DNA from: Prevotella sp. | Lineage (GTDB): Bacteria > Bacteroidota > Bacteroidia > Bacteroidales > Bacteroidaceae | Direction: 5' to 3' | Length of the DNA: 58,436 bases | Assembly: GCA_017651265.1 (NCBI GenBank) | Contig: JAGCDO010000041.1 | Location: forward strand, 1 to 58,436 | Shown: in pieces, positions 14,105-33,041 of the stretch | How positions within the stretch are numbered: the stretch's first letter is position 1 | Layout: each line of letters begins with the position of its first letter | Position numbers and translations under genes: made by a program | Notes under the pieces: model-generated | The model's database searches: none | What the model saw: only the letters and a program-made list of their open reading frames with translations | What the model was told of the DNA's origin: nothing

Positions 14105-14149
14105 TTACAGTTTGTCGACAAAACAGGGATAAGAACTAACAAATTGTTA
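14105..14149 (+). promoter_or_regulatory. Paired 13-bp operator upstream of dapF (also between dapF and glnB)
   Basis: The near site TAACAAATTGTTA is a perfect odd-centred palindrome. The far site TTACAGTTTGTCG, centred exactly 32 bp upstream, matches the consensus TTWCAAWTTGTWA at 10 of 13 positions. The near centre is 68 bp from the dapF -7 element. The same geometry is found at gltB and glnN. Confidence 0.65.
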
Positions 14150-14210
14150 CTTTTGGTCAAAATGAAGATGATTTATTCAATTATTCCTTGTAAAATCTTA
14201 CAAATCGTCG

Positions 14211-14218
14211 TACCTTTG
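14211..14218 (+). promoter_or_regulatory. Promoter -7 element of dapF
   Basis: TACCTTTG ends four bases before the dapF ATG, so transcription should begin at or within a base or two of the start codon, giving a leaderless or nearly leaderless mRNA. Confidence 0.7.
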
Positions 14219-14222
14219 CAGC

Positions 14223-15050
14223 ATGAAAGGGAAAGTAGAATTCACCAAGATGCACGGGGCTGGGAACGACTACATCTACGTAAACACCCTCAGGTATAAC
14301 ATCCCCAATCCCGAGAAGACAGCCATCGCTTGGAGCGATCGCCATAAAGGTATCGGTAGCGACGGACTGGTACTGATTGGAAAGTCGCCTATTCCCGAGG
14401 CAGATTTCACCATGCGCATCTTCAACGCCGACGGCTCGGAAGCCATGATGTGCGGCAATGCATCGAGGTGCATCGGAAAATATCTCTACGAAAGGGCCCT
14501 GACAACACAAACACACATCCGTCTGCTCACGCTCTCCGGGGTCAAGAATCTGGAGCTTCATCTCGACAGCAGTCATACTACCGTGGAAAGCGTCACGGTT
14601 GACATGCTTGGTCCGGCCTTCGATGTTCCCGCTCAGTTTATCCCCATTTCTACAGAAGCTGATGAGGATCTGCCCGAAGGCACGTTCGTATCGATGGGAA
14701 ATCCGCATTACGTGATCTTCACAGACGACATCGACCTGGTGAGTGAGATAGGACCTATACTGGAACACCACCCTTCCTTCCCGCAGCGCTGTAACATAGA
14801 GTTTGCGCGCATGGAACCTGACGGCGGTATCAGGACAAGAGTATGGGAACGGGGCAGCGGCATCACCATGGCCTGTGGAACGGGCGCCTGTGCTACTGCC
14901 GTGGCTGCATGTAGAACAGGTAGAGCAGGACGCAAGAGCAGCATCATCATGGATGGCGGCACCCTCCATATCGAGTGGTGCGAGAAAGATGATCATGTTT
15001 ATATGACCGGTCCTGCCGCATTCGTCTTTGATGGCGAAGCAGAATTATGA
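14223..15050 (+). CDS. dapF: Diaminopimelate epimerase
   Basis: Interconverts LL- and meso-diaminopimelate for lysine and peptidoglycan synthesis. 275 residues. The two catalytic cysteines are visible in MMCGNASRC (near residue 78) and [10 protein letters not shown] (near residue 220). Other family segments are [14 protein letters not shown] at the N-terminus and [11 protein letters not shown] in the middle. It is followed after 19 bases by dapL, which makes its substrate, so the pair forms a lysine/cell-wall operon. Confidence 0.96.
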
Positions 15051-15063
15051 ATTATGAATTATT
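15043..15063. repeat. Three-unit 7-bp repeat across the dapF stop codon
   Basis: Units AATTATG, AATTATG, AATTATT. The dapF TGA lies in the junction of the first two units, and the array fills the space before dapL. Confidence 0.7.
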
Positions 15064-15069
15064 GAAAAT

Positions 15070-16299
15070 ATGGCTTTAGTAAACGACCACTTCCTGAAAT
15101 TACCGAACAACTACTTGTTCGCAGATATTGCCAAGAAGGTGAATGCCTTCAAGGCCACACACCCGAAGATTGATGTAATCAGTCTTGGCATTGGTGATGT
15201 TACCCAACCGCTGGCACCCGCCGTCATCGAAGCTATTCACAAGGCTGCCGACGAGATGGCCACCCGCCAGGGATTCCGAGGCTACGGTCCTGAGCAGGGT
15301 TACGATTTCCTTCGTGATGCCATTCTGAAGAACGACTTCCTGTCGCGAGGCATTCATCTCGACCGTGACGAGGTGTTCATCAACGACGGTGCCAAGAGTG
15401 ATACGGGAAACATTCAGGAACTGGTGCGCTGGGATAATTCCATTGGCGTTACCGATCCTATCTATCCCGTCTATATCGACTCGAATGTGATGATCGGGCG
15501 GGCAGGTGTTCAGGAGAACGGTCGATGGTCGAATGTGATCTACATGCCCTGTAATGCCGAGAACAACTTCGTTCCGCAGATTCCTGATCAGCGTGTGGAT
15601 GTGATCTACCTCTGCTATCCCAACAACCCGACGGGAACGGTGATTACCAAGGAAGAGCTGAGCAAGTGGGTGAACTACGCCCTGAAGAACGACACACTCA
15701 TCTTCTACGATGCTGCTTATCAAGCTTATATCCAGGATGAAAAGATTCCGCATAGCATCTACGAGATAAGAGGTGCTCGTAAGTGTGCCATCGAGTTCCA
15801 CTCGTATTCCAAGACCGCTGGTTTCACAGGTGTTCGCTGTGGCTATACCATCGTACCGAAGGATGTGACTGCTGCCACACTGACGGGTGAGCGTATCCCC
15901 CTCAATCCCTTGTGGAACCGCCGACAGTGTACGAAATTCAACGGCACCAGCTATATCTCGCAACGCGCCGCTGAAGCCATCTACACCCCTGAGGGAAAGG
16001 AACAGGTAAAGGCCACCATCGACTACTACATGCAGAATGCCAAGAAGATGCTCACTACGCTCCGTTCTTTAGGCTTCGAGTGCTACGGCGGTGAGAACGC
16101 CCCGTATATCTGGGCGAAGACACCAGAGAACAGTCCTTCATGGAAATTCTTCGAGGAGATGCTCTATGGTGCCCATGTGGTCTGCACCCCGGGAGTGGGC
16201 TTCGGTCCTGCAGGCGAAGGTTATGTGCGCTTCACCGCCTTCGGCAGTCATGAGCAGACCGACGAAGCCTTGCAGCGCATTGAGAAATGGCTAAAATAA
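15070..16299 (+). CDS. dapL: LL-diaminopimelate aminotransferase
   Basis: PLP-dependent class I/II aminotransferase converting tetrahydrodipicolinate directly to LL-diaminopimelate. 409 residues, the usual length. Family features are LPNNYLFADIAKKV at the N-terminus, ISLGIGDVTQPL, YPNNPTGTV, and the PLP-lysine segment HSYSKTAGFTGVRCGY near residue 245. Its last nine bases overlap the end of the converging purF. The dapF-dapL pairing supports DapL over other aminotransferases. Confidence 0.95.
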   Translation: MALVNDHFLKLPNNYLFADIAKKVNAFKATHPKIDVISLGIGDVTQPLAPAVIEAIHKAADEMATRQGFRGYGPEQGYDFLRDAILKNDFLSRGIHLDRDEVFINDGAKSDTGNIQELVRWDNSIGVTDPIYPVYIDSNVMIGRAGVQENGRWSNVIYMPCNAENNFVPQIPDQRVDVIYLCYPNNPTGTVITKEELSKWVNYALKNDTLIFYDAAYQAYIQDEKIPHSIYEIRGARKCAIEFHSYSKTAGFTGVRCGYTIVPKDVTAATLTGERIPLNPLWNRRQCTKFNGTSYISQRAAEAIYTPEGKEQVKATIDYYMQNAKKMLTTLRSLGFECYGGENAPYIWAKTPENSPSWKFFEEMLYGAHVVCTPGVGFGPAGEGYVRFTAFGSHEQTDEALQRIEKWLK

Positions 16300-18066
16300 G
16301 GTTATTTGTTTCTTGAATGTCGGACTTTCCACATAACTTACGAAAGCCTGATTCACCTTTCGGATGCCGCCAGGGGTGGGATAATGTCCTGTAAAATACC
16401 AATCACCGGGATGATTGGGGCAGGCTTCATGTAATCCCTCGATGCTTTGGAAGACGAGCTCCACAGGAGCATGCATATCATCGGGGCGCAGCATTTCCAC
16501 AATCTTCTTATTGATCTCCTCCACTGTAAAGGGAGCATAGATTGCACGTACAGGAGAATCATCCCCTTGTTCCTCGGGTGACAAGGCACGGATCTGCTCC
16601 TTGCATTTCCTATACGTTTCCGAGATAATCTCATGCATTCCCCGTTCATGAATCAAGGCGATGGCCGCCCGGAAAGCACACAACTCCTCCAGACGTGACA
16701 TGTCAATGCCGTAGTAGTCGGGATAGCGTATCTGTGGAGAACTGCTCACCATCACGATCTTCTTCGGATGGAGACGGTCGAGAATCTTGAAGATGCTCTC
16801 CCGAAGGGTAGTACCCCGAACAATGGAATCGTCGATGATGACCAGGTTATCCTTGAAAGGTCGCAGACTGCCGTAACTGATATCATAGACATGCGCAGCG
16901 AGGTCGTTACGTTCAGCATTATCAGCAATGAAGGTACGCAGTTTGATATCCTTCCACACCACCTTTTCGGTACGTACGTTATGCCCCTGCTGACGGAAGC
17001 CGTCGGTCATACCATAGAACGCCACCTCGGCAGTATTGGGGATATAAGAGAACACGGTATTCCCGATGTCACCATCAATGGCTTTCATGATGGGCTGCAT
17101 CAGTTGTTCTCCCAAACGCTTACGCTCCTGATAGATGTCACGATCCGAACCTCTGCTGAAATAGATGCGCTCAAACGAACACGCACTCAGTTTCTGAGCC
17201 GGTAGGATCTGTTCCAGCATACTCTCGCCATTCCTTCTCACAATCAATGATTTTCCTGGCTGTAATTCCTGCACATCTTCGGTGTGCAGGTTAAAGGTTG
17301 TTTGCAGCACAGGGCGCTCACTGGCCATGGCCACGATTTCCTCATCGATGTAGTAGAACAACGGACGGATGCCCCAGGGATCGCGTACGGCAAACATCTC
17401 ACCCGAACCCGTCAGTCCGCACATCACATAGCCACCATCATAATGACTCATCGTGGTGCGCAGCACATTGGCCATGCATACATGGTTATCGATGTAACTG
17501 GTAATATCGGTTCCTTCCAGTTGTTTACCCTTTGCTTCCTCGTACAATCGCTCCACTTCACGATCCAACCGGTGTCCCATCAGTTCCAGCGTGATGTACG
17601 AATCGCCGTAGATTCGAGGCGACTGTCCTTGTGAGGTCAGGAAACGGAACACCTCATCGATGTTCGTCATGTTGAAGTTACCGCACAGACAGAGGTTCTT
17701 TGCGCGCCAGTTGTTACGGCGCAGGAACGGATGGACAAACGTCAATCCGCTCTTCCCTGTTGTGGAGTAGCGAAGATGTCCCATGAACAGCTGCGCCTCG
17801 GGGAGCCCTCTTGAGAAGATCTCCGTGATGGCATCCTTACCCTCGGCCTTTTCGCGGAACATATATTCCGTACCGGCAGGAGCATCCAGGTTGACACAGG
17901 CAATGCCCGCTCCCTCCTGTCCTCGGTTGTGCTGCTTCTCCATCATCAGATAGAGCTTATTCAGCGCATACAACCGCGTACCATATTTCTGTTCGTAGTA
18001 TTCTAATGGTTTCAGCAGGCGAATCATCGCCACACCGCATTCATGCTTTATTTCTTCCATCTTCAA
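16291..18066 (-). CDS. purF: Amidophosphoribosyltransferase (long Bacteroidetes type)
   Basis: First committed step of purine synthesis: PRPP plus glutamine to phosphoribosylamine. The N-terminal Ntn glutaminase domain has its nucleophile in HECGVAMI after a short leader of seven to nine residues (start at Met1 or Met3) that must be removed. NRGQEGAGI and GHLRYSTTG follow. The phosphoribosyltransferase domain carries the PRPP loop VIIDDSIVRGTT near residue 415. It has 591 residues, longer than the roughly 505 of E. coli PurF, with extra C-terminal sequence. A paralogue with altered function cannot be excluded, because some Bacteroidetes carry two PurF-like genes. Confidence 0.85.
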   Translation of the reverse strand: MKMEEIKHECGVAMIRLLKPLEYYEQKYGTRLYALNKLYLMMEKQHNRGQEGAGIACVNLDAPAGTEYMFREKAEGKDAITEIFSRGLPEAQLFMGHLRYSTTGKSGLTFVHPFLRRNNWRAKNLCLCGNFNMTNIDEVFRFLTSQGQSPRIYGDSYITLELMGHRLDREVERLYEEAKGKQLEGTDITSYIDNHVCMANVLRTTMSHYDGGYVMCGLTGSGEMFAVRDPWGIRPLFYYIDEEIVAMASERPVLQTTFNLHTEDVQELQPGKSLIVRRNGESMLEQILPAQKLSACSFERIYFSRGSDRDIYQERKRLGEQLMQPIMKAIDGDIGNTVFSYIPNTAEVAFYGMTDGFRQQGHNVRTEKVVWKDIKLRTFIADNAERNDLAAHVYDISYGSLRPFKDNLVIIDDSIVRGTTLRESIFKILDRLHPKKIVMVSSSPQIRYPDYYGIDMSRLEELCAFRAAIALIHERGMHEIISETYRKCKEQIRALSPEEQGDDSPVRAIYAPFTVEEINKKIVEMLRPDDMHAPVELVFQSIEGLHEACPNHPGDWYFTGHYPTPGGIRKVNQAFVSYVESPTFKKQITLF

Positions 18067-18083: not shown

Positions 18084-18132
18084 TCTCAATTTCTAATTCT
18101 CAATTTTCAATTATCAATTATCAATTATCAAT
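18084..18132. repeat. Seven-unit 7-bp repeat array between purF and pyrG
   Basis: Units TCTCAAT, TTCTAAT, TCTCAAT, TTTCAAT, then TATCAAT three times: 49 bp in all. The array runs into the complement of the pyrG stop codon. A less regular CTCACCT/CTTAACT stretch precedes it. Confidence 0.85.
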
Positions 18133-19778
18133 TATTTAACGCATGCTTTGATGAAACTCATGAACAACGGATGGGGATGGAGCACGGTGGAGGAATACTC
18201 CGGATGGAACTGCGTACCGATATACCATCTCTTTTCGGGTATTTCCACTATTTCCACAAGATCAGCAGCAGGGTTCACCCCTACCCCTTTCATGCCCGCC
18301 TTCTCAAACGCTTTGAGATAGCTGTTGTTGAACTCATAACGGTGACGGTGACGTTCCTTGATGAAAGCAGACCCACCTCCTTGCCCCTCCCTGTTATGGA
18401 GGGGAGTAGATCGTTCCGACTGCGTGTAGGCCATAAACGCCTTGCTGCCTGCCACCAACTGGCACTCGTAAGCACCTAATCGCATTGTACCGCCCATCTG
18501 CGTGATGTTCTTCTGCTCTTCCATGAGGTCGATCACATTGTGGGGTGTGTGCTCATCCATCTCACGACTGTTGGCATCCTTGTAACCCAACACGTTACGG
18601 GCAAACTCAATGACCATCATCTGCATGCCCAAGCAGATACCAAAGGTTGGGATATCGTGTGTTCGGGTGTATTCGGCTGCAATGATCTTACCTTCAATGC
18701 CTCGTGTGCCGAAGCCCGGGCAGATCACGATGCCGTTCATACCGCTGAGTTGTTCGGCTACATTCTCTTGGGTGATATGCTCACTGTTGATGAAGTGCGT
18801 CTTCACCTTTCTGTGATTATAGGTGCCGGCATGTGCCAGACTCTCAAGAATACTCTTATACGCATCTTGGAGGTCGTACTTACCGACAAGACCGATGTTG
18901 ATGATCTCAGTGGAATTCTTCCTGAGCTCCAGGAAGTTACGCCAAGGACCCAGTTCGGGAGTCTCGCCTACCTCCACGCCCATCTTTTTCAGGATGATGG
19001 CGTCGAGCCCCTGATGCTGCATATTGACAGGTACTTCATAGATGCTGGGCAGATCCTGACTCTGGATAACCGCAGCCACATCCACATTACAGAAATGGGC
19101 CACCTTCTCCCTGATTCCCTCATTCAACGCATGTTCCGTACGTAACACCAGCACCTCAGGTTGAATACCCAGTCCTTGTAACTGCTTCACACTGGTCTGC
19201 GTAGGTTTGGTCTTCAACTCTCCAGCCGCTGCCAGATAAGGCACGTAGGTAAGATGCACATTCAACGCCCTTGAAGGACCCAGTTCCCAACGTAGCTGTC
19301 GGATGGCCTCCAGGAACGGCTGACCCTCGATGTCACCAATAGTACCGCCGATTTCTGTAATCACGAAATCCAGATCACGTTTCGTAGCATTGAGAAGAAT
19401 ACGTCTTTTAATCTCGTCGGTGATGTGCGGCACCACCTGAATGGTCTTACCCAGATAGTCACCTCTCCGCTCCCGCTCAATCACGCTCAGGTAGATTTGT
19501 CCTGTGGTCACACTATTATTACGCGTCATCTCAATACCCGTAAACCGCTCGTAATGTCCAAGGTCCAAATCCGTCTCCATACCATCGGCGGTGACGTAAC
19601 ACTCCCCATGCTCATAGGGATTGAGTGTTCCTGGATCAATGTTGATGTAAGGGTCGAATTTCTGAATCGTTATCCTGTAACCTCGTGCCTGAAGCAGCTT
19701 TCCCAACGAAGCCGAGATGATGCCCTTGCCTAATGACGAGGCTACTCCTCCCGTGATAAAAATATATTTCGTCTCCAT
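18132..19778 (-). CDS. pyrG: CTP synthase with a repeat-derived insertion
   Basis: Makes CTP from UTP, ATP and glutamine. 548 residues. The synthase domain starts KYIFITGGVASSLGKGI with the ATP loop and has YEHGECYVTADGMETDLDLGHYERF. The class I glutaminase domain has the nucleophile in FGICLGMQ and the GFGTRG segment, and ends with HPEYSS. Between YTQSER and ERHRHRYEFNN, at residues about 455-470, lies extra sequence TPLHNREGQGGG, encoded by a palindromic element; normal enzymes have only a few residues here. Divergent from gltB. Confidence 0.95.
   Translation of the reverse strand: METKYIFITGGVASSLGKGIISASLGKLLQARGYRITIQKFDPYINIDPGTLNPYEHGECYVTADGMETDLDLGHYERFTGIEMTRNNSVTTGQIYLSVIERERRGDYLGKTIQVVPHITDEIKRRILLNATKRDLDFVITEIGGTIGDIEGQPFLEAIRQLRWELGPSRALNVHLTYVPYLAAAGELKTKPTQTSVKQLQGLGIQPEVLVLRTEHALNEGIREKVAHFCNVDVAAVIQSQDLPSIYEVPVNMQHQGLDAIILKKMGVEVGETPELGPWRNFLELRKNSTEIINIGLVGKYDLQDAYKSILESLAHAGTYNHRKVKTHFINSEHITQENVAEQLSGMNGIVICPGFGTRGIEGKIIAAEYTRTHDIPTFGICLGMQMMVIEFARNVLGYKDANSREMDEHTPHNVIDLMEEQKNITQMGGTMRLGAYECQLVAGSKAFMAYTQSERSTPLHNREGQGGGSAFIKERHRHRYEFNNSYLKAFEKAGMKGVGVNPAADLVEIVEIPEKRWYIGTQFHPEYSSTVLHPHPLFMSFIKACVK
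18384..18404. repeat. 21-bp palindromic element inside pyrG
   Basis: CCCCTCC, CTGTTAT, GGAGGGG. Its flanks (TTG before, AGTA after) match those of copy 1 in asnB. Read on the pyrG strand as PLHNREG. Confidence 0.85.
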
Positions 19779-19795: not shown

Positions 19796-19803
19796 CAAAG
19801 ATA
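19796..19803 (-). promoter_or_regulatory. Promoter -7 element of pyrG
   Basis: TATCTTTG on the minus strand, 17 bases upstream of the pyrG ATG. Confidence 0.72.
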
Positions 19804-19896
19804 CTACAATCTGTTAGTTTATGCGCGTAAGAAAGAGGTATTCAATAGATGAGTTTGAGGAGTGATGACTATCTGCACAACATAAGAAATATATTA

Positions 19897-19941
19897 TTTC
19901 AAATTGTAAGCAAAAGTAAACATAATTATTACAATTTGTTA
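19897..19941 (+). promoter_or_regulatory. Paired 13-bp operator upstream of gltB
   Basis: Far site TTTCAAATTGTAA and near site TTACAATTTGTTA have centres 32 bp apart. The near centre is 68 bp upstream of the gltB -7 element. The far site is identical in sequence to the far site at glnN, and CATAAT directly precedes the near site in both. Confidence 0.72.
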
Positions 19942-20002
19942 CTTATGAACAAAAAGTAGGTAAAAACGTCAGTAATATGAGCATTTTGATAGCAGAATGT
20001 CA

Positions 20003-20010
20003 TAATTTTG
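20003..20010 (+). promoter_or_regulatory. Promoter -7 element of gltB-gltD
   Basis: TAATTTTG, 29 bases upstream of the chosen gltB ATG. It lies inside the longer open frame, which is why the upstream ATG is not used. Confidence 0.65.
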
Positions 20011-20039: not shown

Positions 20040-23000
20040 ATGACGAATAGCAAGCAAACCCAAAACCAAAAAGGACTCTACCAGAGCGACTATGAGCACG
20101 ACGCGTGTGGTGTGGGAATGATTGTGAACATCCACGGCAATAAGAGTCACGATCTGGTTGACAATGCACTGAAGGTGCTGGAGAACATGAGGCATCGCGG
20201 AGCGGAAGTCGGCAAAGACGGCGACGGAGCTGGTATCATGATCCAGATTCCGCATGAGTTCATCCTGCTGCAGGGTATTCCTGTACCAGAAAAGGGAAAG
20301 TATGGCACGGGCCTTGTTTTCCTGCCGAAGGACGAGAAGGCACAGAGCGAGATTCTCAGCGTGATGATCGAAGAGATAGAACGCGAGGGATTACAGCTGA
20401 TGCACCTGCGTACGGTACCCACAAACCCGGAGTGTCTGGGCGAATCGGCATTAAGTACAGAGCCTGACATCAAGCAGATTTTCATCACCGGCGTGTCGGA
20501 TGACAAGGTGGACACCTTCCCGCGCACGTTATATATAATAAGGAAGAAGATTGAAAAGCGCATCACGAACAACGACTTCTACATCTGTTCGTTAAGCAAC
20601 ACAAACATGGTTTACAAGGGAATGCTGTCGTCGATGCAGGTACGACAGTACTACCCTGATTTGACAAATCCCTATTTGACAAGCGGACTGGCACTGGTTC
20701 ACTCACGATTCAGCACAAACACATTCCCTACGTGGAGTTTGGCACAGCCTTTCCGTTTGTTGGCGCACAATGGAGAAATCAACACGATACGTGGAAATCG
20801 TGGATGGATGAAGGCGAGAGAGAGCGTATTGTCGAGCGAGGCGCTGGGCGATGCGAAAGCGATTTCACCCATTGTGCAGCCGGGGATGTCAGACTCGGCA
20901 TCTCTCGATAATGTATTGGAGTTCTTCGTGATGAGCGGACTTTCATTACCTCATGCCATGAGCGTGCTGGTACCTGAGTCGTTCAACGACAAGAACCCGA
21001 TCAGTGAGGACCTGAAAGCGTTCTATGAGTACCATTCCATCCTGATGGAGCCATGGGACGGTCCTGCTGCCCTCCTGTTCTCTGACGGTCGTTTTGCCGG
21101 TGGTATGCTCGACCGCAACGGTCTTCGTCCTGCTCGTTACACCATCACCAAAAACGATACGATGGTGGTGGCCTCTGAGGTAGGTGTGATGGACTTCGAC
21201 CCTACGGAGATTGCTGAGAAAGGACGTCTGCAGCCGGGTAAGATTTTGCTGATCGACACCCAGGAAGGTAAGATCTACTACGATGGTGAGATCAAGAAGC
21301 AGTTGGCCGATGAGCACCCCTACCGTCAGTGGTTGTCCACCAACCGCATCCAGCTGGAGAAGCTGAAGAGCGGTCGCCATGTGGAGAACGGAGTAAGCAA
21401 CCTGCTGCAGAAGGAAATGATGTTCGGCTATGGCGAAGAGGATGTAGATGGCACAATCGTTCCGATGGCCATCAACGGTCAGGAGCCTACAGCCTCCATG
21501 GGTAACGACACCCCGCTGGCCGTTCTCTCTGACAAGCCGCAGACATTCTTCAACTATTTCCGTCAACAGTTCGCACAGGTAACCAACCCTGCCATCGACT
21601 CCATCCGCGAGGAACTCGTGATGAGTCTTACGGAATATATCGGTCGTGTGGGTTCTGGCATCCTCAACCCCGACGAAACCAACTGTAAGATGGTGCGTCT
21701 GCCTCATCCCATACTGAACAACACCCAGCTCGATATCCTTTGTAATATCCGCTACAAGGGTTTCAATACCATTAAGCTACCGATGACATTCAGTCTCTCC
21801 CAGCCCCTCCCTATCAAGGAGGGAAGTGATTACACGCAAGCCGGGGAGGACTTGCGCAGAGCGCTTGACAAGTTATGTAAGGATGCTGAACATGCGGTAG
21901 ATGATGGTTATAACTATATTATTCTGACAGATAAGATTGATGATGCTGCCGGGTCTTTCTATATCCCTTCACTGCTGGCAGTGAGCGCCGTGCATCATTA
22001 TCTGATTTCCGTAGGTAAGCGTGTGCAGACAGCATTGATCGTGGAAAGCGGTGAGATTCGCGAAACCATGCATGCAGCCCTGCTGTTAGGCTATGGTGCT
22101 TCGGCACTATGTCCTTATATGACGTTTGCCATCTTGAACGACCTCGTGAAGCGTCACAAGATCCAAGAGGATTATGCCACCGCAGAAGCCAACTACATCA
22201 AGGCCGTTAAGAAAGGACTGTTCAAGATCATGGCCAAGATGGGAATCTCTACCATCCGCTCCTATCGCGGGGCAAAGATCTTTGAGAGTATCGGACTCAG
22301 CGAGAGTCTGCTGAAGACTTACTTCGGCACGGAAATAAGTACCATCGGCGGTATCGGTCTGGAGAAGATCGCCGCTGATGCCATCGCCATGCACCAAGCT
22401 GCCTATGCCCATAACAACACAGACACATCCTTTTTACCCAATCTCGGTCAGTTCCACTGGCGGAAAGATGGCATCAAGCATGCATGGAACCCGGAAACCA
22501 TTGCCACGCTGCAACTGGCTACCCGCACAGGTAACTACGAGAAATTCAAGCAGTTCTCGAAACTCGTCGATGAGAAGGAGGCGCCGATATTCATTCGCGA
22601 CTTCATCGGGTGGAAGAAGAATCCTATTAACATCGACGAGGTGGAACCTGTTGAGAACATCGTGAAGCACTTTGTGGCAGGCGCCATGTCGTTCGGAGCC
22701 CTCTCGAAAGAAGCCCACGAGGCCATCTGTCTGGCCATGAACAAACTGGGAGCCCGCTCAAACACAGGTGAGGGCGGTGAAGACGCTGAGCGTTTCCACG
22801 CCACCTTCGACGGTATCTCACTGTCGAGCAAGACCAAGCAGGTTGCCTCTGGTCGTTTCGGTGTAACAACGGAATATCTGGTCAATGCCGAAGAGATTCA
22901 GATCAAGGTGGCCCAGGGTGCAAAGCCCGGTGAGGGCGGACAGCTTCCTGGCTTCAAGGTCAACGAGGTGATTGCCAAGACGCGCCACTCCATCCCCGGC

Positions 23001-24563
23001 ATTTCATTGATCTCGCCGCCGCCTCATCACGATATCTATAGTATCGAGGACCTGGCCCAGCTGATCTTCGACCTGAAGAACGTGAACCCCACGGCAGCCA
23101 TCTCTGTGAAGCTGGTGGCCGAGAGCGGTGTGGGAACGATTGCCGCAGGTGTAGCCAAGGCCAAGGCCGACCTGATCATCATCTCTGGTGCAGAGGGCGG
23201 TACAGGTGCTTCTCCTGCCAGCTCCATGCGTTTCGCAGGTATTTCACCTGAGATCGGACTCTCTGAGACGCAACAGACACTTGTTCGTAACGGATTGCGC
23301 AGCAATGTCCGTCTGCAGGTAGATGGTCAGATCAAGACCGGTCGTGACATCGTATTGATGGCCTTACTGGGAGCCGAGGAGTTTGGATTCGGTACGGCAG
23401 CCCTCATCGTATTGGGTTGCGTCATGATGCGCAAGTGTAACCTGAATACTTGTCCGATGGGTGTGGCCACGCAGAACCCCGAGTTGCGCAAGCACTTCAT
23501 GGGACGTTATGAATATCTGGTGAACTACTTCACCTTCCTCGCCCAAGAGGTAAGGGAATACCTGGCAGAACTCGGTTTCAAGAGTCTGAACGATATCGTG
23601 GGTCGCACCGACCTAATTGAGACGCGCGAATCGGCTCTCGACTTCTCTCGTCTGCTCTACAAGGAAGAAGGCACGCTTCACTTCACGGGCGATGTCCACA
23701 AACCTTCTGTGCCGCTGGGTATGCAGGGAACCGTTCTCGACCAGCAGATGATTGAGGCTGCTTCAAAAGCTATCGATAAAGGTGAAGAGGTGAACCTCGA
23801 CTATGCCATCAAGAATACCGATCGCGCCGTGGGTACCATGCTCTCTGGCGTCATCGCAAAAAAATACGGACTGGCGGGTCTTCACGACAATACCATCAAC
23901 GTGAAGTTCAAGGGTTCCGCAGGACAGTCGTTCGGTGCCTTCCTGGAACATGGCATCAGCTTCAAGCTCGAAGGCGAAACCAACGACTACTTCGCCAAGG
24001 GACTCTCTGGCGGACGTATCGCCATTCTTCCTCCCACACGTGCTAACTTCGCTGCTGAGGACAATATCATCGCAGGTAATACGGGTCTTTACGGCGCCAC
24101 CAGCGGCGAACTCTATATCAATGGTAAGGTAGGCGAACGCTTCGGTGTCAGAAACTCAGGTGCCATTGCAGTGCTTGAAGGCGCAGGCGACCACTGCTGC
24201 GAGTATATGACGGGCGGTCGTGTGGTTGTGCTTGGTGAGACAGGACGAAACTTCGCTGCCGGTATGAGCGGTGGTGTGGCCTATGTCTGGGATAAGAACC
24301 ACAACTTCGACTACTTCTGTAATATGGACATGGTGGAGATCAATCTGGTGGAAGACAGTGTGTCACGCAAGGAGCTGCACGAACTCATTCGTCAGCACTA
24401 CCTCTACACGGGTTCTAAACTGGCCCGCACCATGCTTGACAACTGGAACCACTACATAGAGGACTTCATCCAGATTGTTCCTATCGAGTATAAGCGTGTG
24501 CTGCAGGAAGAGCAGATGAAGAAACTACGCGACAAGATTGCTGACATGCAACGAGAGTATTAA
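20040..24563 (+). CDS. gltB: Glutamate synthase large subunit
   Basis: Transfers the glutamine amide to 2-oxoglutarate, giving two glutamates. 1507 residues from the ATG after an AAGGA-like site. A 22-residue leader precedes the glutaminase nucleophile (HDACGVGM, Cys23). Other landmarks: FSTNTFPTW, the central domain, the FMN domain with GEGGED and GGQLPGFKV, the 3Fe-4S cysteines in MMRKCNLNTCPMGVATQ, and the C-terminal GXGXG beta-helix. Residues about 583-597 (SLSQPLPIKEGSDY) are extra and come from a palindromic element. Followed by gltD; expression is probably controlled by the paired operator upstream. Confidence 0.96.
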   Translation: MTNSKQTQNQKGLYQSDYEHDACGVGMIVNIHGNKSHDLVDNALKVLENMRHRGAEVGKDGDGAGIMIQIPHEFILLQGIPVPEKGKYGTGLVFLPKDEKAQSEILSVMIEEIEREGLQLMHLRTVPTNPECLGESALSTEPDIKQIFITGVSDDKVDTFPRTLYIIRKKIEKRITNNDFYICSLSNTNMVYKGMLSSMQVRQYYPDLTNPYLTSGLALVHSRFSTNTFPTWSLAQPFRLLAHNGEINTIRGNRGWMKARESVLSSEALGDAKAISPIVQPGMSDSASLDNVLEFFVMSGLSLPHAMSVLVPESFNDKNPISEDLKAFYEYHSILMEPWDGPAALLFSDGRFAGGMLDRNGLRPARYTITKNDTMVVASEVGVMDFDPTEIAEKGRLQPGKILLIDTQEGKIYYDGEIKKQLADEHPYRQWLSTNRIQLEKLKSGRHVENGVSNLLQKEMMFGYGEEDVDGTIVPMAINGQEPTASMGNDTPLAVLSDKPQTFFNYFRQQFAQVTNPAIDSIREELVMSLTEYIGRVGSGILNPDETNCKMVRLPHPILNNTQLDILCNIRYKGFNTIKLPMTFSLSQPLPIKEGSDYTQAGEDLRRALDKLCKDAEHAVDDGYNYIILTDKIDDAAGSFYIPSLLAVSAVHHYLISVGKRVQTALIVESGEIRETMHAALLLGYGASALCPYMTFAILNDLVKRHKIQEDYATAEANYIKAVKKGLFKIMAKMGISTIRSYRGAKIFESIGLSESLLKTYFGTEISTIGGIGLEKIAADAIAMHQAAYAHNNTDTSFLPNLGQFHWRKDGIKHAWNPETIATLQLATRTGNYEKFKQFSKLVDEKEAPIFIRDFIGWKKNPINIDEVEPVENIVKHFVAGAMSFGALSKEAHEAICLAMNKLGARSNTGEGGEDAERFHATFDGISLSSKTKQVASGRFGVTTEYLVNAEEIQIKVAQGAKPGEGGQLPGFKVNEVIAKTRHSIPGISLISPPPHHDIYSIEDLAQLIFDLKNVNPTAAISVKLVAESGVGTIAAGVAKAKADLIIISGAEGGTGASPASSMRFAGISPEIGLSETQQTLVRNGLRSNVRLQVDGQIKTGRDIVLMALLGAEEFGFGTAALIVLGCVMMRKCNLNTCPMGVATQNPELRKHFMGRYEYLVNYFTFLAQEVREYLAELGFKSLNDIVGRTDLIETRESALDFSRLLYKEEGTLHFTGDVHKPSVPLGMQGTVLDQQMIEAASKAIDKGEEVNLDYAIKNTDRAVGTMLSGVIAKKYGLAGLHDNTINVKFKGSAGQSFGAFLEHGISFKLEGETNDYFAKGLSGGRIAILPPTRANFAAEDNIIAGNTGLYGATSGELYINGKVGERFGVRNSGAIAVLEGAGDHCCEYMTGGRVVVLGETGRNFAAGMSGGVAYVWDKNHNFDYFCNMDMVEINLVEDSVSRKELHELIRQHYLYTGSKLARTMLDNWNHYIEDFIQIVPIEYKRVLQEEQMKKLRDKIADMQREY
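21804..21824. repeat. 21-bp palindromic element inside gltB
   Basis: CCCCTCC, CTATCAA, GGAGGGA. Read in the gltB frame as PLPIKEG, the same frame as in asnB and pyrG although gltB is on the opposite strand. Confidence 0.82.
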
Positions 24564-24599: not shown

Positions 24600-25955
24600 A
24601 TGGGAAATCCGAAAGCATTTCTGGAGATACACCGCCAAGAGGCAGGCTATCGTCCGATACAAGATAGAATACACGACTTCAGTGAAGTTGAGCAGACCCT
24701 CAACACACGCGAGAGAAAACTCCAGGCCAGTCGTTGCATGGACTGCGGCGTACCCTTTTGTCATTGGGCCTGTCCACTGGGCAACAAACCGCCAGAGTGG
24801 AACGATGCCCTGTATAAAGGCGACTGGGAACAGGCTTATCGTTTACTCAATGCCACGAATCCCTTCCCTGAGTTCACCGGTCGTATCTGCCCTGCCCTCT
24901 GCGAGAAGGCCTGTGTGCTGAACCTCATCGAGCATGAGCCTACTACCAACCGCGAGGATGAGTGTGCCATTACCGAAGCTGCCTTCCGCGAAGGCTATAT
25001 CACCGTTCATCACCCAGAGCGAAACGGGAAGAAAGTAGCAGTGATCGGTGCGGGCCCTGCAGGATTGGCTGCTGCCAATGACCTGAACCTGATGGGCTAT
25101 CAGGTAACGGTATTCGAGAAGAACGAGGCGGCTGGCGGACTGCTCCGCTATGGTATTCCTAACTTCAAACTCAACAAGGCAATCATCAACCGCCGCATCA
25201 GTCTGCTCGAAGCCGAAGGCATTGAATTCAAGTATGGACAAGACATTTCTCTCACCTCTCACCTCACACCTCTCACCTCTGATTACGACGCCGTCGTAAT
25301 CGCATCAGGCACTCCTACTGCCCGCGATCTCAAAGCACCTGGTCGTGAATTGAAGGGCGTACACTTCGCCCTCGAACTGCTGGCACAGCAGAACCGCGTG
25401 CTTGCAGGAATGGAGTTCTCGAAAGATGAACGCATCACCGCCAAAGGAAAGGATGTACTCGTCATCGGTGGTGGCGATACAGGTTCCGACTGTATCGGTA
25501 CGGCTCATCGTCAGGGTTGCAAGAGTGTCACACAGATTGAGATCATGCCCAAGCCTGTTGAAGGTCATGTGGATCCCCAAAATCCCTGGCCGAACTTCCC
25601 CCGCACCCTCAAGACCACCTCTTCGCACGAGGAGGGATGTACCAGAAGATGGAACATCAACACACTTGAGTTCCTTGGTAAGGACGGGAAGCTGACAGGT
25701 GTGAAAGTGCAGGAAATCGACTGGGAACCCAATCCCAACGGTGGTCGTCCCATCATGGTTGAAAAAGGCAAGCCCGAGATCATCAAGGCTGAGCTCTGTC
25801 TGTTGGCCATGGGTTTCCTCAAGCCCGAACACCCCAAATATCCCGAGAACGTGTTCGTATGCGGTGACTCTGCCAATGGAGCCAGTCTGGTTGTAAGAGC
25901 CATGGCCAGTGGTAAGCAGACCGCCCAAAAAGTGCACGCTTTCCTGTCGAAATAA
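24600..25955 (+). CDS. gltD: Glutamate synthase small subunit
   Basis: Takes electrons from NAD(P)H and passes them to GltB. 451 residues. The N-terminal Fe-S region shows CMDCGVPFCHWACPLGN and RICPALCEKAC. Then come the FAD-binding VIGAGPAGLAAANDLN near residue 145 and the NAD(P)H-binding VIGGGDTGSDC near residue 287; the C-terminal FAD segment is VFVCGDSANGASLVVRAM. Residues about 218-227 (LTSHLTPLTS), joining two strands before DYDAVVIA, are encoded by a 7-bp repeat array. Cotranscribed with gltB. Confidence 0.95.
   Translation: MGNPKAFLEIHRQEAGYRPIQDRIHDFSEVEQTLNTRERKLQASRCMDCGVPFCHWACPLGNKPPEWNDALYKGDWEQAYRLLNATNPFPEFTGRICPALCEKACVLNLIEHEPTTNREDECAITEAAFREGYITVHHPERNGKKVAVIGAGPAGLAAANDLNLMGYQVTVFEKNEAAGGLLRYGIPNFKLNKAIINRRISLLEAEGIEFKYGQDISLTSHLTPLTSDYDAVVIASGTPTARDLKAPGRELKGVHFALELLAQQNRVLAGMEFSKDERITAKGKDVLVIGGGDTGSDCIGTAHRQGCKSVTQIEIMPKPVEGHVDPQNPWPNFPRTLKTTSSHEEGCTRRWNINTLEFLGKDGKLTGVKVQEIDWEPNPNGGRPIMVEKGKPEIIKAELCLLAMGFLKPEHPKYPENVFVCGDSANGASLVVRAMASGKQTAQKVHAFLSK
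25251..25278. repeat. Four-unit 7-bp repeat array inside gltD
   Basis: Units CTCACCT, CTCACCT, CACACCT, CTCACCT read in frame as LTSHLTPLT. The third unit is the divergent one, as at nadB. Confidence 0.82.
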
Positions 25956-25998: not shown

Positions 25999-25999
25999 C

Positions 26000-27326: not shown

Positions 27327-27644
27327 TTACGGCTCAGCAGCTACTATAGGCTCGAATTCATGGGCGGGATAAACTTGAGAATGACATATCTGTATAATAG
27401 GAGAATCAAGAGCCTTCTCGATGGAAACGAGCGTATCAATCGTAAAATTGTGCGTTCCACGCATCCATTTACTGATTTCAGCTTCACTTTTGCCCAGCCT
27501 AAGAGCAAGATCTTTCTGCTTCAGACCTTTTTCTACTAGAATATCATGTATTCTGTCAACGATACGGAAAGACAATGCAACAGAATCACGTACTTCAGGA
27601 TTCACCTGCTTACGCCTCTCCTCCAAAACTTTACTCCTTCTCAT
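27327..27644 (-). CDS. XRE-family antitoxin/regulator
   Basis: 105 residues with a helix-turn-helix of the XRE type in the middle (KGLKQKDLALRLGKSEAEISKWMRGTHNFTIDTLVSIEKAL, about residues 39-80). It overlaps the end of the preceding gene by 14 bases. This toxin-first order and overlap are typical of type II toxin-antitoxin pairs of the HigBA/RelBE type. It probably represses its own operon through the AACTTAA inverted repeats upstream. Confidence 0.82.
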   Translation of the reverse strand: MRRSKVLEERRKQVNPEVRDSVALSFRIVDRIHDILVEKGLKQKDLALRLGKSEAEISKWMRGTHNFTIDTLVSIEKALDSPIIQICHSQVYPAHEFEPIVAAEP

Positions 27645-28119
27645 ATCTTGTAAAATTTAAGTTTCCAACAATTTCCTTATCCACAAGCACCAATGTGCCG
27701 TCTTTAATTCTTGAAGAGATAAAACGGCTTGTATCTATCAGTAGTCTGACGTATGGGGCCAAACTTTCACTTTCTTGCCAAGACTTCGAATCCTTCACGC
27801 CACCATTGCCAAATACAAGAATCTTATCCGATAGTCGTAAACAATACAATCTGAGTTTATTCCCCACATCAATGGGAATCACCCCAACACCATCACCATA
27901 TTTACCTTCTGGCCGAAAGTAACGCTCTAAAGCTCCGCGTTCAGCAATTTGATCTAACCATGAAATAATCACATCTATCTCGTCATCATAATCGCATCCT
28001 ATTGGGAATTTCTCAAAGAAGGCTTCCATTTCAGTCAATTCTTCTCCAACCATTTTGATGCTGTAGAAATTAACCTTCTCGTGTTCTTCCAGTAATTCAA
28101 TACTGTATTCTTGTTTCAT
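27631..28119 (-). CDS. Putative toxin of a type II toxin-antitoxin pair
   Basis: 162 residues. The segment NKLRLYCLRLSDKILVFGNGGVKDSK resembles the core strands of RelE/HigB-type toxins (basic strand, then a hydrophobic strand ending in GNGG). No transmembrane segment. It is followed by, and overlaps, an XRE-type gene, which supports the toxin assignment more than sequence alone does. The N-terminal 60 residues have no recognised motif. Confidence 0.62.
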   Translation of the reverse strand: MKQEYSIELLEEHEKVNFYSIKMVGEELTEMEAFFEKFPIGCDYDDEIDVIISWLDQIAERGALERYFRPEGKYGDGVGVIPIDVGNKLRLYCLRLSDKILVFGNGGVKDSKSWQESESLAPYVRLLIDTSRFISSRIKDGTLVLVDKEIVGNLNFTRYEKE

Positions 28120-28203: not shown

Positions 28204-28354
28204 CGAAAATAAGCCGTTATATATGACTGTAAAGCATCAAGAGTGATATAAATCACACCAACCGAGCTTACGTTATGCCACGGTGGTTAGATCCATTCAT
28301 ACAAATTGATGAGTAAAACCTTTTTTATTCTGATGGTAATAGGTATTTTTTTAC

Positions 28355-28362
28355 TATCTTTG
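28355..28362 (+). promoter_or_regulatory. Promoter -7 element of the radical SAM/DNA-repair operon
   Basis: TATCTTTG, 33 bases upstream of the first ATG. The leader contains GGAGAAGGAG, an unusually clear ribosome site for this group. Confidence 0.7.
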
Positions 28363-30528: not shown

Positions 30529-30543
30529 TAATAAGAAGAGGAA

Positions 30544-30924
30544 ATGAAAGACTACCCTGACAAGATGACCGCAGAGCAGGCACGGACTTTTCGCGATGAT
30601 GTGCTGAATATCGTCAGTCAGATACCTTGTGGCAAGGTAACGACCTACGGTCATATTGCCGCATTGGCCGGCTGGGCAAGTCATTCAAGAATGGTGGGAC
30701 GTACCCTGCGTTACACCCCTGAAGCCAGGTCTCTTCCTTGTCACCGGGTAGTGAATATAGCAGGAAGAACCGCCCCGGGCTGGAGCCGCCAACGCTTTCT
30801 CTTGGAGGAAGAAGGTGTCAGCTTCAAGTCCAACGGTCATGTGGACATGCAGAAGCATCTCTGGGAACCCCTCATGACACTAACAAAGGATGAAAAAACA
30901 GAAACAAACGATGGAACAAATTGA
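30544..30924 (+). CDS. MGMT-family (Ada C-domain-like) protein
   Basis: 126 residues comprising only the DNA-binding/methyl-acceptor domain of O6-alkylguanine-DNA alkyltransferases. GKVTTYGHIA, SHSRMVGRTL (arginine finger) and SLPCHRVV are present. The acceptor cysteine (Cys66) is retained, unlike alkyltransferase-like proteins that have tryptophan there, so methyl transfer is possible. The N-terminal domain of full-length enzymes is absent. It follows the DUF4130 gene after 15 bases, making a compact repair operon. Confidence 0.85.
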   Translation: MKDYPDKMTAEQARTFRDDVLNIVSQIPCGKVTTYGHIAALAGWASHSRMVGRTLRYTPEARSLPCHRVVNIAGRTAPGWSRQRFLLEEEGVSFKSNGHVDMQKHLWEPLMTLTKDEKTETNDGTN

Positions 30925-31213
30925 AAGAATCAAGACGATGGAGCAACATCTCGACCGTGCTTCGCAGGCTGTGATGAAATTATCGGCAGCCCTCGATGAC
31001 TATGCCGAGGTGCAGGCTTCTATCCGTGAGCTGGAGAAGTACTATGGTAGTGATGACTGGAAGCAGGATTTTGCCGACGATGAGCAAGGACTGCTGCCTC
31101 AGGATCTGAAACGAGGGGTGCTCAGCGAGGATGGGATCTGGAATGTGTTGACAGACAATCAAGATCTCCACGCTCGCATGAAAACGATTGTTTCAAAGAG
31201 GAAACGTAAGTAA
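30911..31213 (+). CDS. DUF4298 protein
   Basis: 100 residues from the ATG giving MEQIERIKTMEQHLD. An ATG 21 bases upstream is also in frame, and both overlap the MGMT-like gene. The sequence is helical and charged, with the family segment LEKYYGSDDWKQDFADDEQGLLPQDLKRGVLSEDGIWNVL. No known function. Last gene of the repair-like operon; it ends 12 bases before the converging reductase gene. Confidence 0.8.
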   Translation: MEQIERIKTMEQHLDRASQAVMKLSAALDDYAEVQASIRELEKYYGSDDWKQDFADDEQGLLPQDLKRGVLSEDGIWNVLTDNQDLHARMKTIVSKRKRK

Positions 31214-31225
31214 TACGTTGGGGCG

Positions 31226-32689
31226 TCACGGTTTCTTTCCCGTCTTACCGACACGCTTGGTGGCGCCAATGGCACCGGTGGGGCAAACCAGCAGACAGAG
31301 ATGACAGCCCACGCAACGCTTTCCTTGAATATGCGGCTGACGGTCTTCATCGAAGGTGATGGCCTGGTGACCACCGTCCATGCATGATGTATAGCAGCGG
31401 CCGCAACCGATGCACCGTTCACGGTCTATCTTGGGGAACACGATGGTTTCACGGTCCAGGTCGGTGGGAGTGATGAAACGGGGCAGTTCCTCGCCCACGA
31501 GGTCGGCCAGCTGACTGACACCTCGTTCCTGCATGTAGTTCTGAAGTCCTGAAACAAGATCGTCGATGATGCGGTAGCCATATTGCATCACGGCAGTGCA
31601 TACCTGCACATTGCGGCAACCCAACTGGATGAACTCCAAGGCGTCGCGCCATGTCTCAATACCACCGATACCGCTGAACTGGATGTTTTTCATGATGGGA
31701 TTCTTTGCCATCTCCAGGATATGCCGCAGGGCAATGGGTTTCACAGCCCGTCCGGAATAGCCGGAAATGGTTTTGTGCGCTGATACGGCAGCACGTTCGC
31801 CCATCGTGACCGACTTAATGGTATTGATGGCCGAGATGGCATTGGCGCCTGCGAAGTAGGCTCCCATGGCCGGCTGATTGATTTGCGTGATGTTGGGTGT
31901 CATCTTCGGGATGACGGGGATGCTTACGCTACGCTTCACATAAGCCGTATAGAATGTGACAAGCTCGGCATTCTGTCCTACATCGCTGCCCATTCCCGCC
32001 AGTCGCATCTGCGGACACGAGAAGTTCAGCTCCACCGCATCCACGCCCGCTGCTTCGGCCATCTTTGCCAGTTCAATCCACTGCTCCTCGGTCTGACCCA
32101 TGATACTGGCCACCACAATCTTGGTGGGATAGTTCTCTTTCAGTCGGTGCAGGATGTCGAAGTCAACATCCACAGGATTCTCCGAGAGCTGCTCCATGTT
32201 GCGGAAACCGAAGAAATCAGATGTTCCCCCTTCACTCACAGCATCAAAGCGTGGAGACACCTCACGGATATCCTCCATACAGATGGTCTTGTAAAAGACT
32301 CCCGCCCACCCTGCTTCAAAGGCTCTTGCCACCATCTCGTAGTTGGTACAAATGGCAGAAGAGGCAAGGAAGAACGGGTTCTCACAGGTGATGCCGCAGA
32401 ATTCGATTTCCAAAGAAGGGAGCGACTTGGCGCCATCGGCCACCGGAACCCCCTTGAGCATTTCCCTGATACGGATGGGACGGTCATAATGGATACAAGC
32501 CTCCTCGGCACTGAGCAGGTCGTCTTCGCTACAGGCCGCCACCCATTGCCCAGCCATTCGCTCATTGTCAAAGCGGATGGCACGGATGGCCCTGGCGGGA
32601 TCTCCTTTCTTGCACGCCTTACTACATGGCGCATCGGCACAAAGCAGGCATCGGCGGGCCTCGTCGTATATGTTCATGGCTCTCTTCAT
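31226..32689 (-). CDS. PreA-type dihydropyrimidine dehydrogenase with extra N-terminal Fe-S region
   Basis: 487 residues. Residues about 12-75 (CLLCADAPCSKACKKGDPARAIR) resemble the N-terminal Fe-S region of GltD, PreT and mammalian dihydropyrimidine dehydrogenase. The central part is the FMN barrel of PreA, starting LEIEFCGITCENPFFLASS, with the catalytic-loop cysteine in NFSCPQM near residue 225. The C-terminus has two 4Fe-4S motifs (CIGCGRCYTSC and CVGCHLCLLVCPTGAI). E. coli PreA is about 411 residues and lacks the N-terminal region. Pyrimidine reduction is likely, and the divergent position opposite glnN fits a nitrogen-scavenging role. No separate PreT-like FAD/NADPH subunit is seen nearby. 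Confidence 0.82.
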   Translation of the reverse strand: MKRAMNIYDEARRCLLCADAPCSKACKKGDPARAIRAIRFDNERMAGQWVAACSEDDLLSAEEACIHYDRPIRIREMLKGVPVADGAKSLPSLEIEFCGITCENPFFLASSAICTNYEMVARAFEAGWAGVFYKTICMEDIREVSPRFDAVSEGGTSDFFGFRNMEQLSENPVDVDFDILHRLKENYPTKIVVASIMGQTEEQWIELAKMAEAAGVDAVELNFSCPQMRLAGMGSDVGQNAELVTFYTAYVKRSVSIPVIPKMTPNITQINQPAMGAYFAGANAISAINTIKSVTMGERAAVSAHKTISGYSGRAVKPIALRHILEMAKNPIMKNIQFSGIGGIETWRDALEFIQLGCRNVQVCTAVMQYGYRIIDDLVSGLQNYMQERGVSQLADLVGEELPRFITPTDLDRETIVFPKIDRERCIGCGRCYTSCMDGGHQAITFDEDRQPHIQGKRCVGCHLCLLVCPTGAIGATKRVGKTGKKP

Positions 32690-32735
32690 AGGTTTGGTTT
32701 TTTAATGTCTAGATGTGATAGCATTTGTAACTCCA

Positions 32736-32743
32736 CAAAAATA
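32736..32743 (-). promoter_or_regulatory. Promoter -7 element of the PreA-type gene
   Basis: TATTTTTG on the minus strand, 46 bases upstream of the ATG. The two glnN operator sites are centred 132 and 164 bp upstream of it. Confidence 0.5.
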
Positions 32744-32868
32744 CGGAGAATAATCCAAACTACCAAAAATTTACACTATTTTTTCTTGACACGAAGGAAC
32801 GGTAACTGGCTACACCGCATCCGTAGCATACAACAATACAACTTATCTTTTGATGAAGGGTATTGGAC

Positions 32869-32913
32869 TTTCAAATTGTAAGTAAACAAGCACATAATAC
32901 TTTCAATTTGTAA
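32869..32913 (+). promoter_or_regulatory. Paired 13-bp operator upstream of glnN
   Basis: TTTCAAATTGTAA and TTTCAATTTGTAA, centres 32 bp apart, with the near centre 69 bp upstream of the glnN -7 element. CATAAT lies just before the near site, as at gltB. This is the main content of the 352-base divergent gap. Confidence 0.72.
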
Positions 32914-32975
32914 TAATATATCAAAAAGAAGAAAATTTATGTCTTTCTATTTACTGATTTACTTGCATAATGTCG

Positions 32976-32983
32976 TATCTTTG
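32976..32983 (+). promoter_or_regulatory. Promoter -7 element of glnN
   Basis: TATCTTTG with a TTG-containing -33 region (ACTTGC) upstream. The leader is about 52 bases. Confidence 0.75.
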
Positions 32984-33041
32984 CCCTCGAAATAAGACAA
33001 AGTGTAAGTATTCACATAAAACCACAAACACCAAAAAGATT

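Follow-up and report, generated by a model that had tools for sequence, protein, structure and literature searches.

A phased ladder of palindromes at ammonia-assimilation promoters of Prevotella, a likely operator for an AsnC-like feast/famine protein

Introduction

Proteins of the Lrp/AsnC (feast/famine) family are described as binding imperfect inverted repeats of 13-17 bp that are clustered two or three helical turns apart (PMC2995911). In Escherichia coli AsnC represses its own gene (PMC8707732), and the archaeal proteins Grp, Sa-Lrp and BarR are reported to wrap DNA as octamers, repressing their own genes and activating a divergent one (PMC10201364); the cofactor of Sa-Lrp is given as glutamine (PMC3584215). 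Here we describe sites of a similar layout in a 58,436-nucleotide contig of Prevotella sp. (JAGCDO010000041.1, assembly GCA_017651265.1), the whole of which is referred to below as the window. They stand as ladders of phased palindromes at the promoters of glnK, dapF, pyrG, gltB and glnN. It would seem quite likely that these ladders are what can be seen of a multi-site operator bound by an Lrp/AsnC-family protein, with the AsnC-like paralogue Lrp2 as the foremost candidate.

Prevotella is a dominant genus of the rumen and gut, and its glutamine synthetase-glutamate synthase (GS-GOGAT) genes respond strongly to ammonium (PMC5552732). In that study, of Prevotella ruminicola 23, amtB, glnK, asnB, glnN-2, gltBD, dapF and pyrG are among the genes that change with ammonium, though the directions given are opposite: one sentence of the results has induction under limiting ammonium, while the figure legend and discussion have higher expression in non-limiting ammonium (PMC5552732). 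A word search of its main text for promoter, motif, transcription factor, NtrC and sigma returned no matches. Judged by titles and the beginnings of abstracts, the open-access papers listed in our searches describe neither a regulator or motif for ammonia assimilation in Prevotella nor the operator reported here, which an initial annotation of the window, made from its sequence, had also taken to be undescribed.

Results

Phased palindromes at five promoters of the window

The initial annotation reported paired 13-mers, with centres 32 bp apart, upstream of gltB, glnN and dapF, and all six are exact in the sequence. Scores in bits refer to a position weight matrix (PWM) learned from relatives. 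At gltB the far site is TTTCAAATTGTAA (19897-19909, centre 19903, 15.0 bits) and the near site TTACAATTTGTTA (19929-19941, centre 19935, 13.9 bits). At glnN they are TTTCAAATTGTAA (32869-32881, centre 32875, 16.2 bits) and TTTCAATTTGTAA (32901-32913, centre 32907, 15.0 bits), and at dapF TTACAGTTTGTCG (14105-14117, centre 14111, 10.3 bits) and TAACAAATTGTTA (14137-14149, centre 14143, 14.5 bits). The near centres lie 68, 69 and 68 bp from the first base of a TAnnTTTG promoter element (20003 at gltB, 32976 at glnN and 14211 at dapF), again as annotated. With at most one mismatch to the annotation's consensus, the window contains two pairs 31-33 bp apart against none in 60 dinucleotide shuffles, the dapF pair failing this cut. 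The learned matrix finds seven pairs at 31/32 bp with both sites of at least 8 bits, where the mean over 200 shuffles is 0.02 pairs and no shuffle has more than one. Lone sites are unexceptional, with 27 of at least 8 bits against 20.5 by shuffling.

The annotation had read the pairs as two sites for a dimeric activator. What is found instead is a ladder in steps of about 31.4 bp that reaches the core promoter, with sites at -7 and +25 relative to the TAnnTTTG (-7) element. Several of its sites had been missed and came from the PWM scan. Between glnK and dapF these are at 13980-13992 (centre 13986, 12.3 bits; +24 from the glnK element and -225 from that of dapF), 14011-14023 (centre 14017, 10.2 bits; -7 from glnK), 14043-14055 (centre 14049, 8.5 bits) and, in the dapF core promoter, 14198-14210 (centre 14204, 10.1 bits; -7). 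Between pyrG and gltB they are at 19804-19816 (centre 19810, 10.6 bits; -7 from pyrG), 19866-19878 (centre 19872, a weak 3.4 bits; -69 from pyrG) and, in the gltB core promoter, 19990-20002 (centre 19996, 9.4 bits; -7). At glnN one site lies in the core promoter (32963-32975, centre 32969, 9.8 bits; -7) and one in the leader (32995-33007, centre 33001, 10.8 bits; +25). The -7 elements themselves are TAACTTTG for glnK (14003-14010, minus strand), TACCTTTG for dapF (14211-14218, plus strand, 201 bp from that of glnK), TATCTTTG for pyrG (19796-19803, minus strand), TAATTTTG for gltB (20003-20010, plus strand, 200 bp from that of pyrG) and TATCTTTG for glnN (32976-32983, plus strand).

A common register of about -7, -69 and -101 fits all five promoters, with 13 of the 15 positions filled. 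There is a site at -7 in each (9.4-10.6 bits), and -100/-101 is filled at all five, by 14111 (-101 from glnK and -100 from dapF), 19903 (-100 from both gltB and pyrG) and 32875 (-101 from glnN). The position at -68 to -70 is strong at three promoters (14143, -68; 19935, -68; 32907, -69), weak at 19872 and absent at glnK (14080). Six of the eight rungs in the glnK-dapF region are filled at 8 bits or more. A blind search of the 58 kb for five-step ladders returned glnN (50.2), glnK/dapF (39.6) and gltB (22.3), the next best scoring 10.2. Two of the operators face two promoters each, since dapF is transcribed away from glnK-amtB and gltB away from pyrG. The shared nitrogen regulon of the annotation keeps its core, a conserved and phased operator common to nitrogen genes, and gains the promoters of glnK and pyrG, while its two-site activator gives way to the ladder. 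A ladder lying over the core promoter fits an oligomeric protein of the Lrp/AsnC type, and repression fits at least as well as activation.

Motif, step and register in relatives

Among 120 genus genomes, 113 gave a match to glnN, 88 to gltB and 94 to dapF, and for each gene the best 30 loci by match to the window's protein were used, the window's own included, as a non-random sample. Loci lying within an operon and lacking their own promoter were dropped (13 of 30 for glnN, 17 of 30 for dapF), as were, by eye, those lacking their own intergenic region: two of 30 for gltB (L080, L081), three of 32 for lrp1 (L126, L129, L131) and four of 22 for lrp2 (L170, L172, L173, L176). Expectation maximisation (EM) used a separate background for each sequence, trimmed inputs and a limit on the number of sites taken from one promoter; run separately on the glnN (17), gltB (28) and dapF (13) promoters, it gave the same odd-centred palindrome, approximately TWWCAWWWTGWWA. 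The consensus, nTnWCAWWWTGWnAn, agrees with Lrp/AsnC operators in being an imperfect inverted repeat of 13-17 bp centred on A/T.

In the 58 promoters together, 116 site pairs lie 31-33 bp apart, distributed over 49 promoters, where random placement gives 12.4 and at most 24 in 500 trials. Harmonics of the ladder are seen at 31/32, 62/63, 94 and 125/126 bp, and a minor series is offset by about 11 bp (11, 42, 74 and 105). Imperfect palindromes of 13-17 bp in phased clusters, two or three turns apart, are the layout of Lrp/AsnC proteins (PMC2995911, PMC10201364, PMC8707732). The random-placement controls treat promoters as independent though the relatives are kin, and for this reason weight is placed on the step controls and the identity check described below.

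TAnnTTTG was found in 15 of the 17 glnN promoters, and in these the sites fall mainly at -101 (13 promoters), -69 (14), -38 (6), -7 (12) and +25 (8), and further upstream at -112 (6), -133 (4) and -143 (7). The 13 dapF promoters repeat the glnN register out to -225, with three to seven promoters per position. For gltB (27 promoters) the main positions are -100 (10), -69/-68 (13) and -7 (7), together with a second class of sites at -16 (13) and +15 (16). Alignment of the ladders with MAFFT lost the register (320 columns). Conservation upstream of glnN and gltB orthologues, on which the annotation's regulon depended, thus holds within the genus.

The gene order of the relatives bears on the membership of dapF. 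It is preceded by an upstream gene in 17 of 30 loci, by eye mostly gltD, while glnN directly follows another member of the set in 13 of 30, by eye mostly the aminotransferase gene downstream of dapF; this gene, dapL, stands between dapF and glnN in many relatives. In many relatives, then, dapF shares an expression unit with gltBD or glnN, and this explains why a lysine and cell-wall gene has the operator in common with them.

Specificity of the ladder

A blind scan covered 80 named loci centred on gltB, the top 80 of 550 (1,415,723 bases), whose titles are mostly Prevotella, Segatella, Palleniella, uncultured Prevotellaceae or Bacteroidales, with P. ruminicola 23 not among them. Given this choice of loci, the specificity that it measures is that within nitrogen neighbourhoods and the sequence flanking them. 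It found 98 ladders scoring at least 22, in 65 of the loci, and all 98 lie within -60 to 450 bp of the start of gltB, glnK, amtB, dapF, glnN, asnB, pyrG, dapL or o1977. The step is sharply defined: under overlapping rules, 31/32 bp gives 98 ladders, 30/31 bp 47 and 32/33 bp 11, steps from 33 to 40 bp give none, steps of 20, 41 and 46 bp give 7, 10 and 8, and other steps 0 to 3. Local shuffling of the DNA left no ladders. Ladders scoring 39.7-47.4 also stand upstream of pyrG away from gltB (L208, L213, L229, L258), which supports CTP synthase as a member of the regulon in its own right.

In the window's own genome, 40 stretches (685,447 bases, with the window about 23% of the genome) hold no ladder of 15 or more, the best scoring 10.2. 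A search of the whole genome (3.16 Mb) for exact CAAWTTG pairs separated by 10-40 bp returned five places, and at three of these, gltB, glnN and C29, the gap is 25 bp. The genome-wide scan proposed with the annotation is therefore covered in part, by this one exact-pair search and by the 23% sample, in which no off-target ladder appears.

The 32-bp pair on C29 (CAATTTG/CAAATTG, G000:C29:1703-1741, L002 1501-1539) is about 2 bp off the -7/+25 register and was not counted; it straddles the -7 element of an NfnAB/GltD-like open reading frame (ORF, named by eye), with one site abutting the element. Variable-gap CAAWTTG pairs over the 120 genus genomes were set aside as too noisy, with repeats in some genomes.

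Distance between divergent promoters

For 49 of 67 divergent gene pairs a -7 element was present on both sides, and these were used, taking the element nearest the start codon. Independently of the motif, the two elements are 199-202 bp apart in 28 of the 49, comprising glnK|gltB (13), glnK|dapF (6), pyrG|gltB (5) and dapF|gltB (4). The other spacings are 170 bp (2 pairs), 209-212 bp (7) and 304-532 bp (12, among them all eight amtB|gltB pairs). The spacings in the window, 201 and 200 bp, correspond to six steps of 31.4 bp plus twice 7, and when a 31.4-bp period is fitted to the distances its phase is 13.7, where 14 is predicted. The 28 fixed-spacing regions have a median ungapped identity of 0.39 and form 20 clusters at 60%. 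Most of the DNA in between varies, whereas the operator step and the distance between promoters are kept.

The Lrp/AsnC paralogues

Three Lrp/AsnC-family genes are present in the genome: Lrp1 (C35), Lrp2 (C12:7795-8253, 153 amino acids) and Lrp3 (C7:66041). The likely regulator gene is that at C12:7795-8253, outside the window. Lrp2 has the two domains of the family, an AsnC-type helix-turn-helix (HTH; PF13404) and RAM/AsnC_trans_reg (PF01037), and its best solved match is E. coli AsnC (2cg4, E 4e-28, residues 4-148).

The matrix from the nitrogen genes was applied to the promoters of lrp2 in relatives, 20 of them hand-picked and so non-random. In the 18 usable genus promoters it finds 30 sites of at least 6 bits against 8.9 in shuffled sequence (maximum 16), with one or more in every promoter, and 19 sites of at least 8 bits, in 16 of the 18 (shuffle mean 3.4, maximum 9), the pattern of an autoregulated gene within the genus. 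In 10 of the 18 a site has its centre at +15 relative to the -7 element, a position that suits an autorepressor. At the 29 lrp1 promoters the same matrix is depleted, with 8 sites of at least 6 bits against 14.3 shuffled, and 2 of at least 8 bits (shuffle mean 4.6). In one relative, G035 (94% complete), lrp2 encodes the single PF01037 protein detected, and ladders of 39.1 (glnN) and 34.0 (gltB) are retained.

The lrp1 promoters carry a motif of their own, YAGAAWWWWWTTCTR by EM, in phased steps of 30, 31 and 41 bp, which we take to resemble the E. coli Lrp consensus. The lrp1 matrix has 100 sites in lrp1 promoters and none in those of lrp2, and in the nitrogen promoters no more than chance. Lrp1 of Prevotella (L126-L156; by eye L349, L350, L356) thus appears to be a second, apparently autoregulated, feast/famine system.

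Genes and other sites of the window

On the minus strand amtB (12276-13529, PF00909) and the P-II gene glnK (13601-13948, PF00543) face dapF (14223-15050, plus strand, PF01678), which is followed by a class I/II aminotransferase gene that we provisionally name dapL (15070-16299, plus strand, PF00155). The CTP synthase gene pyrG (18132-19778, minus strand, PF06418/PF00117) is divergent from gltB (20040-24563, plus strand; PF00310, from a scan of the N-terminal part), and gltD (24600-25955, plus strand), also assigned through Pfam, comes next. The type III glutamine synthetase gene glnN occupies 33042-35258 on the plus strand (PF12437/PF00120).

Upstream of a radical-SAM gene (28396, plus strand), two sites of 9.1 and 9.3 bits stand 31 bp apart at 28274 and 28305. 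They lie at -81/-50 from a -7 element at 28355, outside the common register, and may mark a further target or be due to chance. Between gltD and this gene, on the minus strand at 27327-28119, is a short Cro/C1-type HTH gene with a small ORF that has no Pfam match, a pair resembling a toxin-antitoxin system.

Discussion

The computations establish the motif, its step and register, its conservation within the genus, its specificity in the DNA scanned and its presence at lrp2 promoters of relatives; the identity of the binding protein, the wrapping, the ligand and the sign of control are inferred. If the ladder is an Lrp2 operator, one dimer would bind each odd palindrome of 13-15 bp, and dimers about 31.4 bp (three turns) apart would lie on one face of the DNA. 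Homology and spacing suggest an octamer or larger oligomer that would wrap the DNA, with an amino acid as effector. The strong upstream sites at -69 and -101 would be loaded first, and with rising occupancy, or in the presence of ligand, the assembly would extend through -38, -7 and +25 and so hide the core promoter. The full ladder would then repress, and the upstream sites alone might activate. The output would be ligand-dependent control of glnK-amtB, dapF-dapL, gltBD, glnN and pyrG; the ligand is probably one of the amide amino acids, for example glutamine or asparagine, a guess from feast/famine logic. Lrp2 would also repress its own gene from the +15 site (site centre relative to the first base of the -7 element).

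A bolder form of this proposal has, in our estimation, about an even chance of being correct: that one AsnC-type protein runs the whole ammonia-assimilation programme of Prevotella, wrapping divergent promoter pairs whose starts would be kept about 201 bp apart, an integral number of ladder steps, so that a single nucleosome-like particle could control both promoters in the same register. To our knowledge, and after limited open-access searches, such a single switch would be the first regulator of nitrogen metabolism to be identified in Bacteroidota; it would also represent a register-locked form of Lrp/AsnC control. The candidate protein, the grammar of the operator and the list of genes named here make nitrogen control in Prevotella testable.

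The main rival keeps an Lrp/AsnC-type operator but has it bound by Lrp3, or by a mixture of Lrp2 and Lrp3. This seems unlikely, though it is the alternative to be taken most seriously: Lrp3 is 49% identical to Lrp2 and its recognition helix is very similar (SGAAIHQRIQKL, against SRAAIHQRVQRL in Lrp2). The promoter of lrp3 in the window's own genome, however, has no site of 7 bits or more, and G035 keeps its ladders with lrp2 as its one detected AsnC-family gene. The initial annotation's proposal, two sites for a dimeric activator, would here mean a protein of another family (MarR or LysR type, for example). It would suit the two strongest window sites at gltB and glnN, which are the -69/-101 pair. 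It is made improbable by ladders of the same step that run on through the promoter and across divergent intergenic regions, and by the recurrence of the motif at an AsnC-family gene, lrp2, and not at its paralogue lrp1.

We give still less credence to an NtrC-like enhancer, that is, paired sites upstream of a sigma-54 promoter. The genome does have a sigma-54 gene (PF04552 at C48), and the NtrC sites of E. coli glnAp2 are also 32 bp apart. But ladders of more than two sites, one of them over the core promoter, are not known as a layout of NtrC, and the promoters carry primary-type TAnnTTTG elements in register where this explanation would have -24/-12 promoters. TGGCAC-N5-TTGCA with up to three mismatches occurs in the window at chance (153 against 163 expected), and near the five promoters its only matches are of three mismatches on the minus strand, over the -7 regions of pyrG and gltB. 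Least credible of all is the view that the palindromes arose by chance in A+T-rich spacers or are general promoter signals. Such short words rich in A and T are frequent, as the count of lone sites illustrates, but the spacing, the register, the gene specificity and the absence of the motif from lrp1 promoters speak otherwise, and the step control together with the shuffles already makes chance very unlikely.

Several observations weigh against the assignment of the ladder to Lrp2, beyond the similarity of Lrp3. EM on the lrp2 promoters alone returned A/T tracts and did not recover the motif de novo, so that the case at lrp2 rests on the transfer of the nitrogen-gene matrix. In the window's own genome the lrp2 promoter lacks a five-step ladder and has just two sites of moderate score, 7.8 and 9.6 bits, separated by 31 bp. 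Two of five further genus lrp2 loci have a site of at least 7 bits (9.0 and 15.0), and the remaining three, which apparently have another gene directly upstream, have none. The E. coli AsnC spacers are of 15-17 bp, two turns (PMC10201364), and the steps seen here are of 31-32 bp. The ladder itself is uneven. It is weakest in the window at gltB, 15 of the 80 scanned loci lack a ladder of at least 22, and all five rungs reach 4 bits in 16 of the 79 ladders scoring at least 30, which means that rungs are often skipped. The distances between divergent -7 elements are fitted best by a 10.3-bp period (resultant 0.83, against 0.61 for 31.4 bp), and when the matrix is averaged over the 28 fixed-spacing regions, positive values are confined to two distances from one -7 element, 7 and 69 bp.

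The range of the system also counts here. In the order, gltB was found in 45 of 149 genomes, the window's own among them. Upstream stretches from 20 of the other 44, all outside the genus, have a ladder of at least 22 in three cases, although in several of the 20 the operon's own promoter lay outside the stretch taken. A protein at least 61% identical to Lrp2 is found in 15 of these 20 genomes, including all three with a ladder; the other 12 of the 15 have such a protein with no ladder in the stretch taken. A site of at least 10 bits is found in 5 of 20 lrp2 promoters outside the genus, as a raw count. The system as described is that of the Prevotella clade, with scattered outliers. In one genome of another family (L288; best Lrp2 match 28%), repeated TTACGTAAAA-like words lie between gltB and dapF instead of a ladder, possibly another nitrogen operator in that family.

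Among the described regulators, E. coli Lrp activates gltBD. Its three-turn spacing of odd-centred palindromes is like that of the ladder (PMC10201364), and octamer wrapping likewise belongs to the Lrp side of the comparison; E. coli Lrp and Prevotella Lrp1 differ from the ladder in having another motif, that found at the Lrp1 promoters. E. coli AsnC, an autoregulator and the activator of asnA, is the closest solved protein to Lrp2, and its autoregulation and its place in amide-amino-acid metabolism (PMC8707732) have predicted counterparts here. It is a local regulator, however, whereas the predicted Lrp2 regulon is the ammonia-assimilation set. The archaeal Grp, Sa-Lrp and BarR, which respond to glutamine or beta-alanine, share with the ladder several phased semipalindromes common to divergent genes, and differ in their archaeal transcription machinery, their other targets and, in part, their spacing, with two turns for Sa- and St-BarR and a mixture for Ah-BarR (PMC10201364). 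Control by Lrp/AsnC proteins through phased sites is thus already known. What appears to be new is the role: an Lrp/AsnC protein that would stand over ammonia assimilation in Bacteroidota as its apparent master switch, through a ladder fixed relative to the promoters and to the spacing of divergent ones.

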